Shown: one piece after another, positions 15,138-29,969 of the stretch
How positions within the stretch are numbered: position 1 is the first letter of the stretch
Layout: each line of letters starts with the position of its first letter
Assembly (NCBI GenBank): GCA_028876495.1
Contig: JAGWRO010000047.1
Coordinates: 1 to 38,312 of the forward strand
DNA length: 38,312 nucleotides
Source: Bacteroidota bacterium
GTDB lineage: Bacteria > Bacteroidota > Bacteroidia > Chitinophagales > Chitinophagaceae
Direction: 5' to 3'
Made by a program: the position numbers and the translations under genes
Notes under the pieces: model-generated
Databases searched by the model: none
What the model was told of the DNA's origin: nothing
What the model saw: only the letters and a program-made list of their open reading frames with translations

Positions 15138-16502
15138 ATGGCAAGTGTAACAAAAGAAAATCTGGGTAATCTCCACGATAAATTAACCGTAAAAATTTCT
15201 AAAGAGGATTATCTTCCTTCGTTTGAAAAAGCAATAAAGGATTACAGTAAAAAAGCAAACATTCCCGGTTTCAGAAAGGGAATGGTGCCGGCCGGCATGG
15301 TTAAAAAAATGTACGGTGCTTCCATTTTTTATGATGAAGTGATTAAATCTGTAGAAAAAGAATTGCAGGAATACCTGGTGAAAGAAAAGCCTGAAATGTT
15401 TGCCAATCCTTTACCAATGGAAAATGATTTGCGCCACCTGGATATGAATCAGCCGCAAGAATATGATTTCCCTTTTGAAATAGGTTTAAAACCGGAAATT
15501 ACTTTAGAGGCTCTTTCTGCCGCAAAACCTGTTTTTTACAAAGTGAAAACTACACAGGAAATGGTAGAGGAAGAAATTGAAAAATTAGTTACCAAAAACG
15601 GTGAACTTAAAGATGCTGAAACGGTTTCTTCACCGGAAAATGTATTGAATGTTTTGTTTGAGGAAAGCGATGCTGAAGGAAATGTTGTTGCTGAAGGCAT
15701 TTCAAAAGACAATTCTATTTTATTAAAATATTTTTCTGAAGACTATCAGCAAAAGCTACAGGATAAAAAAGTAGGTGATTCGATCGTTCTCCAGTTAAAA
15801 GACGCTTTTCCTGAAAAAGAAAGAGAATGGATTTTATCCGACCTCGGCCTGGATAAAGAAGACGCATCAGCGATAGAAAAATATTTCAAAATGTCGATTA
15901 CCAAAATCGGGCTGGTAGAAAAGAAAGAATTGAACGAAGATTTCTTTAAACTCGTTTTTCCGGATAAAGACATTAAGACTGAAGAAGATTTTCGCAAAAC
16001 CATAGAAGAAGAAATCCAAAAACAATGGGATGCCGCAGGCCACAACCAGGTGCAGGACCAATTATATCATACTTTGATCGACTCACCTGTTGAATTTCCG
16101 GAGAGTTTTTTAAAGCGTTGGCTTGAAGTTGGCGGTGAAAAGCAAAAAACCAAAGAGCAGGTTGAAGAAGAGTTCCCAAAATTTAAAGACCAGCTTAAGT
16201 GGACACTGATCAGCGATAAAATAATTAAAGAAAATAACCTTGACGTATCTGAAGAAGAATTGAGAAACAACATGAAGGAAGAAATTTCCCGCTACTTAGG
16301 CCAAATGAGCATGGGTGAAGATACTTCATGGTTGGATAGTTATGTTGACAGGATGATGAAAGATGAAAAACAAGTAGATGCTTCGTACAGAAGATTGATC
16401 ACCGAAAAATTATTCAACTGGCTCGAAACACAGGTGACGCCTGAAGAAAAAGAGATCTCTTCTGAAGAATTTCTAAAGATGCAGGAGCATCATCACCATT
16501 AA
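15138..16502 (+). CDS. tig: Trigger factor-like ribosome-associated chaperone
   Basis: The N-terminal ribosome-binding domain is recognisable by the IPGFRKGMVPAGMVKKMYG block (residues about 42-60), the trigger-factor signature. The middle (about 150-250), where the FKBP-type prolyl isomerase domain normally lies, is strongly diverged, so isomerase activity is doubtful. The C-terminal half is a long charged helical region typical of the chaperone arms. The position upstream of clpP and clpX is the classical tig-clpP-clpX order. The protein ends in four histidines, which belong to the natural reading frame. A heptamer array begins directly after its stop codon. Confidence 0.9.
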   Translation: MASVTKENLGNLHDKLTVKISKEDYLPSFEKAIKDYSKKANIPGFRKGMVPAGMVKKMYGASIFYDEVIKSVEKELQEYLVKEKPEMFANPLPMENDLRHLDMNQPQEYDFPFEIGLKPEITLEALSAAKPVFYKVKTTQEMVEEEIEKLVTKNGELKDAETVSSPENVLNVLFEESDAEGNVVAEGISKDNSILLKYFSEDYQQKLQDKKVGDSIVLQLKDAFPEKEREWILSDLGLDKEDASAIEKYFKMSITKIGLVEKKELNEDFFKLVFPDKDIKTEEDFRKTIEEEIQKQWDAAGHNQVQDQLYHTLIDSPVEFPESFLKRWLEVGGEKQKTKEQVEEEFPKFKDQLKWTLISDKIIKENNLDVSEEELRNNMKEEISRYLGQMSMGEDTSWLDSYVDRMMKDEKQVDASYRRLITEKLFNWLETQVTPEEKEISSEEFLKMQEHHHH

Positions 16503-16544
16503 TAGTTCATAGTTTTTAGTTCGTAGTTCGTAGTTCGTAGTTTG
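16503..16544. repeat. Heptamer array, left arm of inverted repeat
   Basis: Six contiguous heptamers start on the first base after the tig stop codon: TAGTTCA, TAGTTTT, three TAGTTCG, then TAGTTTG. The core 16517-16542 is a perfect 26-base inverted repeat of 17038-17063. Over all 42 bases the arms differ at about four positions. Confidence 0.95.
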
Positions 16545-16573
16545 GGCTGATTGTCATATTTTTAATAAAAATT

Positions 16574-16999
16574 ATGGCAACTATTCAAAGTTTTGAGGAT
16601 TTAAAAGTTTGGCAAAAAGCAAGGATACTTTGCTCAGAAATTTTTTCTTCAACCAGTATCGGTAATTTTTCTAAAGACTTTGGTTTAAAAGATCAAATCA
16701 ATAGAGCTTCAGGTTCAATAATGGATAATATCGCTGAAGGATTTGGAAGAAAAGGGAACCTCGAATTCATTAATTTTCTTACCTATTCCAGCGGTTCAGT
16801 TTGCGAATGTAAATCCCAATTATATAAAGCTTTCGACAGAAATTATATTACTGAAGCAAAGCGTAAAGAATTATTAGACCTGGCGGATGAAGTTGGAAAA
16901 ATGATTAGTTCACTCATGTCCTATCTTGGAGGAACTGAATTGAGAGGTGCCAAATTCAAAGCAAGAGAAAAAAAAATAAACGAGTCTATTAAACAATAG
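16574..16999 (+). CDS. Four-helix bundle protein (S23/23S rRNA intervening-sequence family)
   Basis: The 141-residue protein has family hallmarks: FEDLKVWQKAR at the N-terminus, LKDQINRASGSIMDNIAEGFGR in the middle, and FLTYSSGSVCECKSQL later. This family includes proteins encoded by intervening sequences in 23S rRNA, and the Avd accessory proteins of diversity-generating retroelements are structurally related; most stand-alone members have no proven function. It probably forms an oligomeric basic bundle that could bind nucleic acid. It lies between tig and clpP, bracketed by inverted heptamer arrays, which points to insertion as a unit. No reverse transcriptase or transposase is present. Confidence 0.92.
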   Translation: MATIQSFEDLKVWQKARILCSEIFSSTSIGNFSKDFGLKDQINRASGSIMDNIAEGFGRKGNLEFINFLTYSSGSVCECKSQLYKAFDRNYITEAKRKELLDLADEVGKMISSLMSYLGGTELRGAKFKAREKKINESIKQ

Positions 17000-17021
17000 T
17001 ATCAAATCGATCGCTGGACCA

Positions 17022-17077
17022 TGAACTAAGAACTAAGAACTACGAACTACGAACTACGAACTATAAACTATAAACTA
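17022..17077. repeat. Heptamer array, right arm of inverted repeat
   Basis: Read on the minus strand, this is eight heptamers: TAGTTTA twice, TAGTTCG three times, TAGTTCT twice, TAGTTCA once. It mirrors the left array at 16503-16544. Together the arms enclose the four-helix-bundle gene and could form a long stem in RNA or single-stranded DNA. Confidence 0.95.
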
Positions 17078-17163
17078 CTCCCTGTCCTTTTGTCTTATTT
17101 TTTTTGTTAGCATAATATTTGGAACTTCACCGCCGTAAATTGTTATTACATTAAATTTAATTT

Positions 17164-17853
17164 ATGAATACAGGAAAAGAATTTGAAAAATATGCCGTAA
17201 AACACAGAGGCATAAGTAGTAATACGCTCGATGCCTATATCAAACATAATGTTACTAACTTAACGCCGAACATCATTGAAGAAAGGCCTATGAATGTTGC
17301 TGTGATGGACGTTTACAGCCGTTTAATGATGGATAGAATCATCTTTCTGGGATACCCTGTAAATGATGAAGTGGCCAATATCATTACCGCTCAATTATTG
17401 TTTTTAGAAAGCACCGACAGGACAAGAGACGTACAGCTTTATATTAATTCTCCCGGCGGAGGTGTATATGCCGGCCTTGGCTTGTATGATACCATGCAAT
17501 TTGTAAATCCTGATGTAGCCACTATCTGTACAGGCATAGCCGCAAGTATGGCAGCAGTGCTAATGGCAGCAGGTGCTCCGGGAAAAAGAAGCGCGCTGAA
17601 ACATTCAAGAATAATGATGCACCAGCCAAGTGCCGGAGCAGCGGGGCAAGCATCTGATGTAGCCATCACCGTAAATGAAGTAAGGAAGATCAAACAGGAA
17701 TTGTATGATATTTTAAGTAATCATACAGGACAAAGTGTGGAAAAAATTGCCAAAGACAGCAATCGTGATTTTTGGATGACCGCTCCGGAAGCCAAAGATT
17801 ACGGGTTGATTGATGAAGTATTGTTTACCAATGAAAGAAAAGAAAAAAAATAG
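17164..17853 (+). CDS. clpP: ClpP protease subunit, first paralogue
   Basis: This serine peptidase subunit of the Clp protease has the full catalytic triad: Ser128 (GIAASMAAV), His153 (MMHQPSAG) and Asp202 (NRDFWM). At 229 residues it is longer than the usual 193-207, owing to an N-terminal extension of about 40 residues before the axial-loop region. It is followed 21 bases later by a second clpP and then clpX, so the three are probably one operon. ClpX would unfold substrates and feed them into the ClpP chamber. The two ClpPs may form a mixed two-ring complex, which is inference. Confidence 0.96.
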   Translation: MNTGKEFEKYAVKHRGISSNTLDAYIKHNVTNLTPNIIEERPMNVAVMDVYSRLMMDRIIFLGYPVNDEVANIITAQLLFLESTDRTRDVQLYINSPGGGVYAGLGLYDTMQFVNPDVATICTGIAASMAAVLMAAGAPGKRSALKHSRIMMHQPSAGAAGQASDVAITVNEVRKIKQELYDILSNHTGQSVEKIAKDSNRDFWMTAPEAKDYGLIDEVLFTNERKEKK

Positions 17854-26933: not shown

Positions 26934-28496
26934 TTAGCGTGCTACGTTTACTGCTCTTTTTTCCCTGATCACCGTTACTTTTATCTGGCCGGGATAAACC
27001 ATTTCAGTCTGAATTTTTTGAGCGATTTCAAAGCTTAATTTATCACTTTCGCCGTCACTAACTTTCTCAGATTCTACAATTACCCTTAACTCGCGACCTG
27101 CCTGAATTGCATACGCTTTTTCTACTCCCTGGTACGCAAGCGCCAGATTTTCAAGGTCTTTTATTCTTTGCAAATATTGCTGCATTATTTCGCGCCGTGC
27201 GCCGGGCCTTGCACCACTCATAGAATCACATGCCTGTACCACTGGTGATATCACATATTCCATTTCCACTTCATCATGATGCGCGCCAATCGCATTACAA
27301 ACTGCCGGATTTTCACCATATTTTTCGGCCAGCTTCATACCAAGAAGCGCGTGGCTTAATTCAGTTTCTTCATCAGGTACTTTCCCGATATCATGTAACA
27401 AACCAGCACGTTTGGCCAGTTTTGCGTTCATTCCCAATTCGGCTGCCATTATTCCACAAAGATTGGCTACTTCCCTGCTATGCATTAATAAGTTCTGTCC
27501 GTAAGAAGAGCGGAAACGCATCTTTCCTACAATTCTAACTAATTCTTTATGAAGCCCGTGAATTCCCAATTCAATTACGGTTCGCTCGCCAATTTCCATG
27601 ATCTGGTCTTCAATTTGTTTGCGAGTCTTTTCAACCACCTCTTCAATTCGTGCCGGATGTATACGCCCATCCGCTACCAAACGCTGCAAAGAAAGGCGCG
27701 CTATTTCGCGACGTAAAGGATCAAAGCAGGAAAGAATGATGGCTTCCGGAGTATCGTCAACGATAAGATCTACCCCTGTAGCAGCTTCTATTGCACGAAT
27801 ATTTCTCCCTTCACGGCCAATAATTGAGCCTTTTATTTCATCACTTTCAAGGTTGAAAACTGTAATTGAGTTTTCTATCGCCTGCTCTGCTGCAGTACGT
27901 TGAATCGTTTGAATGATAATTTTCCTTGCTTCTTTATTAGCGCGCAATTTCGCATCGTCTACAATTTCCTGCTGAATACTAAGTGCCTGCGAATTGGCCT
28001 CATTTTTCAAAGTTTCAATCAACTGTGCTTTTGCTTCTTCAACCGATAAACCCGAAACTTTCTCAAGCCTTTTGATATGCTCTTCCTGGTGCTTTTCCAG
28101 TTCTGTTCGCTTGATATTTACCACTTCGATCTGACGGTTCAGATTTTGTTTGATCACCTCATTTTCTTTGATGATACGCTCAATATTTTGGTCTTTTTGG
28201 TTAATCGATTGTTCTCTTTGCTTAATCCTGTTTTCTGCGTCGTTTAATTTTTGGTTTCGCTGAATAACTGTCTTTTCGTGCTCGGCTTTTAGTTGTACAA
28301 AATGTTCCTTTGCTTCCAGTTGCTTTTCTTTTTTTATAGTTTCAGCTTTTGACTGTGCGTCGGAAATAATTTGTTGAGCTTGTTCTTTTGCGTTTTCTAA
28401 GAGTTGTTTTGTGTTTTTTGCAAATAATATTTTTCCCAGTATGATGCCTGCAATTAATGCTATGGCGCCCACTATTATGGGGAGAAGTTGTTCCAT
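26934..28496 (-). CDS. rny: Ribonuclease Y
   Basis: This membrane-anchored endoribonuclease initiates mRNA decay. It has an N-terminal membrane helix (residues 4-26), a long coiled coil (about 30-205), a KH RNA-binding domain with [19 protein letters not shown] (from 226), and an HD domain with LLHDIGK (His369-Asp370) plus the later HHDE motif. The length of 520 residues is standard. It is separated from rplS by about 110 bases and from fabF by about 220 bases, and seems to be transcribed separately. Confidence 0.97.
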
Positions 28497-28715
28497 TGTT
28501 TTTTAATGATTTTAAGTCGGTTCATAATCTAAGTCCACTTTTTAAATAACCAATAAGTAAATAAGTAAATACAAAATTGGTAATTAACGAAGATAATAAA
28601 ATTGTAAAGAAAGAATTGATTATAAATAATTTAATCCCACAACAAAAGATTAAATTATTGAAAAAGAAAAGCAGGGAAAAGTTTTTATAATGAATAAAAA
28701 TTTCCCAAAAATACG

Positions 28716-29969
28716 TTATTGTTTATACTTCTTGATAATAATGGAAGCGTTATGGCCTCCAAAACCGAAAGTATTACTTAAAGCGGCGTTTACTTCCCTT
28801 TCCTGGGCTTTATTAAAAGTAAAATTGAGCTTTGGGTCAAATGCAGGGTCATCCGTAAAATGGTTAATCGTGGGAGGTATCACATTTTTGGTAACTGCCA
28901 GTATGCACGCAAGTGCTTCTATTACACCAGCCGCGCCCAGGCAATGGCCTGTCATTGATTTTGTAGAGCTGATGTTCAAATTATGAGCACTTTCACCAAA
29001 TACATTTAAAATGGCTTTTGTTTCAGCAATATCACCCAGCGGTGTGGATGTTCCGTGAACATTTATGTAAGCGATGTCCTCAGGCTCCATTTTGGCTTCA
29101 GCAAGCGCATTACGCATTACATTTTTAGCACCCAATCCATCCGGATGGGGAGCTGTAATATGATAAGCGTCTGCAGTTGCGCCTCCTCCTGCAATCTCAC
29201 AATAAATTTTGGCGCCTCTTGCCAATGCATGTTCCAGGTCTTCAAGAACCAACACTCCCGCACCTTCTCCCATTACAAATCCATCACGGTCTTTATCAAA
29301 CGGACGAGAGGCAGTTTTAGGATCGTCATTTCTTTCACTCAAAGCTTTCATAGCGTTAAAACCTCCAACTCCTGATTCAGAAATCACGGCTTCGCTTCCG
29401 CCTGTAAGAATAATATCAGCCTTCCCCAAACGAATGGTATCAAAAGCGTCTATTATTGCATTAGTACTGCTTGCGCAGGCACTTACTACTGCAAAGTTAG
29501 GACCGCGAAAACCATATCGCATTGAGATTTGCCCTGCGGCAATATCTAATATCATCTTCGGAATAAAGAAAGGATTAAAGCGTGGAGTACCATCGCCACG
29601 TGCAAATTCCATTACATCATCCTGGAAGGTGGTAATACCACCTATGCCGCTGGCAAAAATAACTCCTACCCTGTCCGGGTCTACATTTTCTTTTGAAATG
29701 CCTGCGTCTTTTACCGCCTCGTCACTTGCTACTAAGGCAAATTGGGTAAAGCGGTCAAGTTTCCTGGCTTCTTTTTTTTCAAGATACTCTGTGGGGTCAA
29801 AATTTTTAACCTCACAGGCAAACCTGGTTTTGAATTTCGCGCAATCAAATTGCTGAATATAATCAGCACCAGATACACCTTTAGTTAAACCTTCCCAATA
29901 TTCAGGAACGCTTTTTCCTAAAGGCGTTATGGCTCCCAATCCGGTTACTACTACTCTTTTTAATTCCAT
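28716..29969 (-). CDS. fabF: Beta-ketoacyl-ACP synthase II
   Basis: This condensing enzyme elongates acyl-ACP with malonyl-ACP in fatty-acid synthesis. The Cys-His-His triad is intact: Cys165 (SACASSTNA), His305 (NVHGTSTPLGD) and His342 (MTGHCLGAAG). FGFGGHNAS near the C-terminus is also conserved. It begins 30 bases after acpP and is cotranscribed with it, the usual acpP-fabF pair. Confidence 0.97.
   Translation of the reverse strand: MELKRVVVTGLGAITPLGKSVPEYWEGLTKGVSGADYIQQFDCAKFKTRFACEVKNFDPTEYLEKKEARKLDRFTQFALVASDEAVKDAGISKENVDPDRVGVIFASGIGGITTFQDDVMEFARGDGTPRFNPFFIPKMILDIAAGQISMRYGFRGPNFAVVSACASSTNAIIDAFDTIRLGKADIILTGGSEAVISESGVGGFNAMKALSERNDDPKTASRPFDKDRDGFVMGEGAGVLVLEDLEHALARGAKIYCEIAGGGATADAYHITAPHPDGLGAKNVMRNALAEAKMEPEDIAYINVHGTSTPLGDIAETKAILNVFGESAHNLNISSTKSMTGHCLGAAGVIEALACILAVTKNVIPPTINHFTDDPAFDPKLNFTFNKAQEREVNAALSNTFGFGGHNASIIIKKYKQ

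Follow-up and report, generated by a model that had tools for sequence, protein, structure and literature searches.

The window, by which we mean the whole stretch of 38,312 nucleotides that was analysed, corresponds to contig C33, one of the 99 into which a genome of 4.7 Mb is assembled. In the gap between tig and clpP it holds a small gene of the S23 family, enclosed by two arrays of heptamers that point toward it from either side. The parts lie as follows.

Positions 15138–16502, forward strand: tig (trigger factor), the upstream neighbour, with matches to TIGR00115 and Trigger_N/C.
Positions 16503–16544, forward strand: 5' array of six inward-pointing TAGTTCN heptamers, GTT cores at 16505–16540.
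Positions 16574–16999, forward strand: S23 (four-helix-bundle) gene of 141 amino acids, matching PF05635 (E 5.1e-34) and TIGR02436 (E 3.4e-31).
Positions 17023–17078, reverse strand: 3' array, eight heptamers that on the minus strand read TAGTTCN; AAC cores at 17024–17073.
Positions 17088–17131, forward strand: clpP leader, just outside the 3' array, common to 13 of 17 readable same-genus loci.
Positions 17164–17853, forward strand: clpP, the downstream neighbour, with a match to PF00574 and one to NF001368 over its cut-off.

A sequence-only reading of this DNA had described an array of six TAGTTCN heptamers that follows the tig stop directly and a second, inverted array of eight 3' of an S23-family gene, and both were found: the first begins at 16503, the first base 3' of the tig TAA, with its six GTT cores at 16505, 16512, 16519, 16526, 16533 and 16540, and the eight AAC cores of the second run from 17024 to 17073 at a spacing of 7 nt. 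The perfect inverted core of 26 bases that it claimed is TAGTTCGTAGTTCGTAGTTCGTAGTT, present at 16517–16542 on the plus strand and at 17038–17063 on the minus strand, and the longer pairing, put at about 42 bases, measured 40 nt at 95% (16503–16542 against 17038–17077, inverted). The family assignment of the gene also held, its score against PF05635 (23S_rRNA_IVP) being 117.1 bits where the family cut-off is 33.8, which makes the protein a member. Runs of GTT or AAC elsewhere in the 38-kb window do not exceed three units, whether at period 7 or at periods 5, 6 and 8–11. Between the two arrays the PF05635 gene is the only ORF of at least 80 amino acids; there is no transposase of the kind that an insertion sequence encodes, and no recombinase was found within it. 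PADLOC gave no match. At the Rfam gathering score, no rRNA family matches the window, and the element does not lie inside an rRNA gene; the matches at that score are a tRNA and a group II intron fragment, the latter (RF02001, D1-D4) at the contig edge, positions 1–48 on the reverse strand. The window also has a 63-nt minisatellite of 7.4 copies (91%) at 777–1245, within the ORF 756–2021, and 2.5 copies of an 8-nt unit, AATAAGTA, at 28552–28571, between the ORFs 26934–28496 and 28690–28986, possibly a decayed array without a gene.

The tig–clpP junctions of relatives had been named as a place to look for variation, and among the loci compared the gene turned out to be peculiar to the window: an S23 gene lies upstream of clpP in 1 of 30 clpP loci, drawn from 38 genomes with a match, and in none of the 28 other readable loci, one more (L067) being cut at a contig end. 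When 95 S23 queries were set against the clpP loci, the one other match was a stretch of 32 residues (E 0.003) inside the tig gene of L075. The nearest relative, whose tig and clpP are 93% and 97% identical to those of the window, agrees with it up to the tig stop and again from just outside the 3' array, and its gap holds array-like heptads and no S23; four other same-genus gaps carry AGTTGTC-like repeats after the tig stop. We infer that the element was either gained in this species or lost in its kin. The position of the gene, between tig and clpP and on their strand, might suggest an old, co-opted part of the operon that aids chaperone or protease work, with the arrays as incidental company; the relatives already contradict this, and elsewhere genes of the family stand between unrelated neighbours, such as cas6 and cas4 or nrd genes, so we give the idea practically no credence. 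The sequence-only reading had also spoken of an interrupted operon, and here only a part survives. The gene does sit in the gap, but the clpP leader, TTTTGTCTTATTTTTTTTGTTAGCATAATATTTGGAACTTCACC (17088–17131), whose GTTAGCA part is what the same-genus loci share, resembles what we take to be a Bacteroidota promoter (TAnnTTTG motif). As this conserved, promoter-like leader lies outside and downstream of the element, clpP may keep its own promoter, and it is doubtful that the operon is strictly interrupted.

The layout of matched inverted arrays at S23 genes is a general rule and not unique to the window. That arrays might flank other genes of the family had been raised as a further check, and they do, with a different sequence at each. 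Six S23 genes were found in the source genome: besides that of the window, four have inverted arms of other sequences and one has a weaker inverted arm. S23 was present in 50 of 59 genomes searched, and from the matches listed we fetched 95 loci in 36 genomes, the window's own included, one of which was dropped for a short flank (as was one of 80 in the window-subfamily set and one of 37 in the second-phylum set, both described below). The inverted match between the two flanks exceeded the 95% level of mispaired flanks in 74 of the 94 loci and the 99% level in 55, and when all 94 3' flanks were compared, a locus's own scored best in 46 cases and was among the top five in 77; 20 loci had no arm match by the 95% criterion. 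Direct, as opposed to inverted, flank matches passed the same marks in 14 and 9 of the 94. The best period among the 74 was 7 in 58 loci, 8 in nine, 9 in four, 10 in two and 12 in one. As controls served 251 ORFs from 400 kb of one S23-rich genome: 11 were over the 95% mark and two over the 99% mark, and one of the 11 was itself an S23 gene, leaving 10 of 250 to set against 74 of 94 (Fisher p 5e-45).

The rule extends to other samples. A scan of named genomes with the window subfamily gave 542 loci, the best 80 of which were taken and 79 were usable; 69 passed the lower score and 44 the higher. Mispaired flanks passed at 14% and 4%, because the GTT core is common to the subfamily. In a second phylum (that of a record titled Planctomycetes), S23 was found in 48 of 99 genomes, and of 37 loci, eight from one genome and the rest among the best-scoring matches, 36 were usable, with 28 over the 95% level of mispaired flanks and 23 over the 99% level. 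Three genomes of that phylum (G060, G072 and G138) have 25, 21 and 13 S23 genes, respectively. A measure that does not depend on pairing found an array in 158 of 232 S23 flanks (116 loci) and in 118 of 160 (80 loci), compared with 63 of 412 control ORF flanks in an S23-rich genome and 10 of 294 in three genomes lacking S23. Nine S23 loci submitted to Rfam returned nothing at the gathering score, and a search for S23 relatives in phages gave no match. We count the segment 16503–17078 among such S23-heptad elements, which measure about 0.4–0.6 kb and have units of 7 nt, less often of 8–9.

What varies from element to element is the sequence of the unit, and the repeat unit follows the S23 protein subfamily, not the genome. 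Between genomes, arm likeness was 0.215 for proteins below 25% identity, 0.27 at 40–50%, 0.37 at 50–60% and 0.596 at 60–80%, and for paralogues of less than 50% identity within one genome it was 0.20–0.215. The Mantel correlation was 0.19, with none of 999 permutations as high (88 loci); two loci, L133 and L008, were excluded from this test and from the mismatch test described below, as their alignments ran through long stretches. By eye, arms are of the type GTTNNNN in the window subfamily, GTGAANN with FLQLNHQ-type proteins and AATTANN with KSFAF-type proteins. One subfamily (L116, L126 and L139) has units of 9–10 nt (GTTTAGANN) and flanks common to three same-genus genomes.

Arrays also occur without a gene, and whether a genome has them, singly or in pairs, is associated with whether it has S23. 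In 800 kb from two S23-rich genomes a tandem repeat finder listed 34 rows with a period of 7 or 8; the 241 kb examined from three S23-less genomes yielded no such row, but three of period 14 (34 against none, Poisson p 3.5e-5). We then counted arrays over the 59 genomes as the sum of three core-and-spacing patterns, overlapping matches being counted apart; the reversed GTT pattern is a repeat type itself (TTG, for example at L127) and was taken as an array, not as a null. The nine S23-less genomes, two of whose assemblies are 59% and 75% complete, had a median of 0 matches and a maximum of 3, whereas the 50 S23 genomes had a median of 34, with at least five in 38 of them and fewer than five in 12 (p 2.5e-5). 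A single fixed type, AGTTGTC, was spread in only 5 of the 59. The type of array goes with the type of resident S23 to differing degrees, judged over 40 genomes and without every S23 gene of each: GTGAA arrays had a median of 17 in the ten genomes with GTGAA-armed S23 and 0 in the 30 without (p 2.7e-4), GTT arrays 35 with a matching arm against 8 without (p 0.014), and TTG arrays 20.5 against 8, which is a trend only (p 0.11). G027 has 268 GTGAA-type matches, those listed being mostly GTGAAAG or GTGAAAA, together with an S23 gene with GTGAAAG arms. G055 (109 GTT matches) and G050 (108 GTGAA matches) are rich in arrays, and no matching arm type was seen among the two and three S23 genes, respectively, found in them. 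About 88 arrays in G055 have at least five GTT cores, many of the GTTACGG type, and some form close inward pairs.

The source genome itself has TAGTTNN arrays of four units at two more places, without an adjoining S23 gene, while three exact copies of TAGTTCG in a row were not found elsewhere in it. Gene-less TAGTTCA and TAGTTCT arrays of that genome lie at L009 1483–1546 and L019 1494–1533, and at L019 a 340-aa ORF ends in a stop codon that runs on into a TAGTTCG unit. Where two arrays lie within 300 nt of each other, 14 pairs point inward, none outward and four are in tandem (161 arrays listed from six genomes, the lists giving the first places of each genome; hand-picked places gave 17, 0 and 4). 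Gene-less inward pairs thus arranged invite comparison with MITEs, though no enzyme that would mobilise them is known; they are of the resident S23 type in G027, for example, while in G055 and G050 a matching S23 is lacking. Heptameric repeats are reported as over-represented in bacteria, with slippage proposed as the source in the part of the Xanthomonas and Nostoc study available (PMC4692102), and tandem arrays plainly expand in some genomes (G046), so one might hold that the heptamers are products of slippage in intergenic DNA and lie beside S23 genes only by coincidence. The matched inverted arms at 74 of 94 S23 genes against 10 of 250 controls, the agreement of arm type with protein and the near absence of arrays from S23-less genomes already contradict such an account, and we regard it as highly improbable.

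One operon offers two junctions, each with a different S23 element that some copies carry and others lack, and the arrays are the boundaries of these elements. Plasmid relatives of S23 came from 25 records, and among the Nostoc plasmids one operon is present in nine copies (a tenth record matches over 41 bases). The junction after a 441-nt gene holds an S23 element in three of the nine, of 420, 420 and 602 nt, the annotated S23 gene of the last being short; in five it is empty, with three bases, GTT or ATT, between TAG and ATG, and the ninth copy shows a gap of 11 nt together with a further small gene. The junction after a 288-nt gene holds a different S23 element, of 505 nt, in one copy, and in the other eight the gap measures −1 to 4 bases. 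All three states are represented among three plasmids of a single strain, ATCC 53789. If slightly degenerate cores are allowed, the four inserts have five heptads per end, TCAGGAG with its complement in one element type and GGGAAAA with its complement in the other, and one end of the 505-nt insert has some 35 extra bases outside the array. The filled junctions keep the stop codon and the next start. They allow a short duplication of TTCTA or ATG that cannot be told from the heptads themselves, and no unambiguous target-site duplication was found at them; for the window, an empty counterpart that matches is lacking. In Pseudanabaena, the cas6–cas4 gap contains an S23 element with GCTTTTA arrays, and all that a relative has in this place is a short AATTACG array. 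Among the cyanobacterial plasmid elements, L401 1201–1560 lies in a cas6–cas4 gap and L399 1195–1563 between ribonucleotide reductase genes. The filled and empty Nostoc sites set the boundaries at the arrays, and the earlier proposal of a cassette delimited by them and lacking a transposase of its own is upheld.

We take the segment 16503–17078 for an S23-heptad mobile cassette, made of one S23 gene with inward arrays of about five units as its ends, and consider this probable, with room for doubt. That the cassette is mobile is argued by its coming and going at intergenic junctions and by the gene-less derivatives of the same inward layout. Close pairs of S23 genes were tried as proof of movement and rejected: in 10 of 12 chosen pairs both genes have the same flanks (one such pair spans two genera and another comes from a single MAG), so that movement is slow or the pairs are vertical. 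The 89%-identical pair L118/L124 is probably a strain mixture in a MAG.

The most serious competitor explains the arrays at the level of RNA. Those that follow stop codons or surround the S23 gene would determine where the mRNA ends, how stable it is or how the gene regulates itself, and S23 would be a post-transcriptional regulator that binds them, a ring in the manner of TRAP (trp RNA-binding attenuation protein), with nothing beyond ordinary duplication needed. TRAP is a ring that reads short cores at fixed spacing; the likeness to it is in the proposed working only, the protein being unrelated and the binding of S23 a supposition. Of 78 arrays in 53 stretches around listed arrays of five genomes, 75 lie between ORFs. 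In favour of the RNA account, own-strand arrays begin at a median distance of 4 nt from the stop (49 arrays), and some gaps between convergent genes are occupied by inverted pairs (L299, L300 and L315); the fixed inward polarity speaks for it as well, and Xanthomonas heptamer arrays are mostly transcribed, as far as the available text of that study goes (PMC4692102). Between codirectional genes, on the other hand, 26 arrays were sense and 18 antisense, and gene-less arrays show no clear strand bias relative to genes; nor does the account sit easily with the filled and empty sites in the Nostoc plasmids or with the fact that a genome may have several S23 paralogues, all differing in their repeats.

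The stem itself tells both ways. The sequence-only reading had suggested that the arms could form a large stem in the tig–clpP mRNA and so modulate protease expression; the effect on expression is a supposition only, and folding of 16490–17100 does predict a strong one (−157 kcal/mol, z −5.3 against 20 shuffles). The arms themselves give a stem maintained in RNA no support: their mismatches were G-U in 48 cases against A-C in 63 (72 loci), and 78 against 69 in another set (69 loci), and with no G-U excess the stem is not supported as a conserved feature. It is this lack of a G-U excess, in spite of the strong predicted stem, that leads us to rank a reading at the level of DNA above one at the level of RNA. 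A role of the arrays in RNA is possible, and we regard the RNA account as a whole as unlikely without being able to dismiss it. In the mobile cassette that we prefer, the position of arrays on stop codons has another explanation, namely that insertions would survive between a stop codon and the next start.

How such a cassette might work is suggested by the number of units. In the window subfamily (80 named loci), period-7 runs of RTT peak at exactly five in both arms: the 5' arm has four in 17 loci, five in 27, six in three and seven in eight, and the 3' arm four in 15, five in 24, six in four and seven in one. Runs on the other strand are mostly of one or two, and periods 5, 6, 8, 9 and 10 average below two. 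Subtraction of pattern counts in G055 gave 38 arrays of four units, 79 of five and nine of six or more. The number is not universal: a measure free of any core peaks at five in the window subfamily and at four in mixed Bacteroidota, G028 and G023 peak at four or fewer (exact core), the arrays of G046 are long, and the window has six and eight. The PDB relatives of a profile built from 14 S23 proteins are 2gsc and 2rld, with five chains each, and the window protein has a weak match (phrog_3206, E 1.6e-4) to Avd of the diversity-generating retroelements, a distant likeness in sequence. Avd is a pentamer. The S23 protein is itself described as a toroidal homopentamer in the available part of the Coxiella study (PMC4990558). 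We find the agreement between five units and five subunits suggestive.

On this basis we imagine that each subunit of a homopentameric S23 ring reads about one unit of the array, and that the ring acts both at the two ends of its own element and at the gene-less copies, bringing the ends together or marking them. Binding is only inferred, from the covariation of arm and protein, the unit count and the likeness to Avd. Strand transfer would have to be supplied by the host or by another element, the agent not being identified; a route through RNA or cDNA is one candidate, suggested by the likeness to Avd, which is the partner of a reverse transcriptase. Once transcribed, the arms could pair into a long stem open to cutting by RNase III, by analogy with rRNA intervening sequences.

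The intervening sequences (IVS) of rRNA are the closest known relatives of the element. According to the portions of the Coxiella paper at hand, the IVS of the 23S rRNA contains an S23 ORF, has a terminal stem of 28 bp and is a substrate of RNase III; before the ORF stand usually three GACAGAT heptamers (two in some strains) and a degenerate one (PMC4990558). Those portions cite an older idea that the ORF served mobility, describe S23 proteins as being without known function and the function and origin of the IVS as unclear more than 25 years after its discovery, and treat the IVS as an rRNA element without generalising the combination of heptamers and S23 (PMC4990558). The IVS of Coxiella and Leptospira share with the window an S23 ORF enclosed by inverted ends, from which a long stem can form, and with S23 elements at large a size of about 0.4 kb and a sporadic distribution. 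The window element differs in its location, between protein-coding genes instead of within rRNA, in its longer arrays and in having gene-less copies genome-wide. The rRNA intervening sequences look like the special case of S23-heptad elements that has been known so far. Among open-access papers, so far as their text was available, we found none besides the Coxiella paper that joins S23 genes to flanking arrays; subscription journals and preprints were outside the scope.

REP and REPIN sequences with their RAYT (TnpA-REP) are alike in that a chromosomal protein co-evolves with dispersed short repeats of high copy number, going by the accessible part of the source (PMC8266576). RAYT is an HuH enzyme and REPs are palindromes, whereas S23 is a four-helix bundle without known catalysis and its arrays are tandem; the criteria of an HuH Y1 transposase and a palindromic REP are not met at the window, which has PF05635 only and tandem units. 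For two Xanthomonas genomes, the text available reports 186 and 183 GGGAATC arrays, mostly of four units, with 70 and 75 convergent pairs, that adjoin stop codons on the sense strand or precede starts on the antisense strand, and it describes these G-rich heptameric repeats and those of Nostoc as G-quadruplex motifs (PMC4692102). The strings 's23' and 'four helix' do not occur in the text of that paper (PMC4692102). One of the S23 protein structures above, 2gsc, is named XCC0516. TAACTGA repeats are likewise, in the part of their description available, mostly intergenic direct repeats of a heptamer, patchy across phyla (Beggiatoaceae, cyanobacteria, Bacteroidetes), one genome having 169 sets with two to six copies apiece; unlike S23 arrays they are direct, with a single inverted one (PMC4679880). 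Neither 's23' nor 'four helix' occurs in the text of that paper (PMC4679880).

It is tempting to see in all this a separate class of mobile elements, S23 with inverted arrays of about five units, having array ends, a five-fold ring and no dedicated recombinase, with the spread over phyla, the gene-less derivatives, the IVS and the Xanthomonas, Nostoc and Beggiatoaceae repeats as its members or relics. We put this forward tentatively, as a proposal that we find slightly easier to doubt than to accept. If true, the class would take in Bacteroidota, Cyanobacteria and the planctomycete record's phylum at the least, its gene-less derivatives would reach up to hundreds of copies, and both the IVS and the heptamers so far unexplained in Xanthomonas, Nostoc and Beggiatoaceae would either belong to it or be its remnants. 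The rule that the repeat follows the protein subfamily offers a mobile element with counted arrays as its ends and a candidate source for the reported excess of heptamer repeats in bacterial genomes. It also gives the S23 protein a testable ligand, the prediction being the right core, at the right spacing, in about five units.
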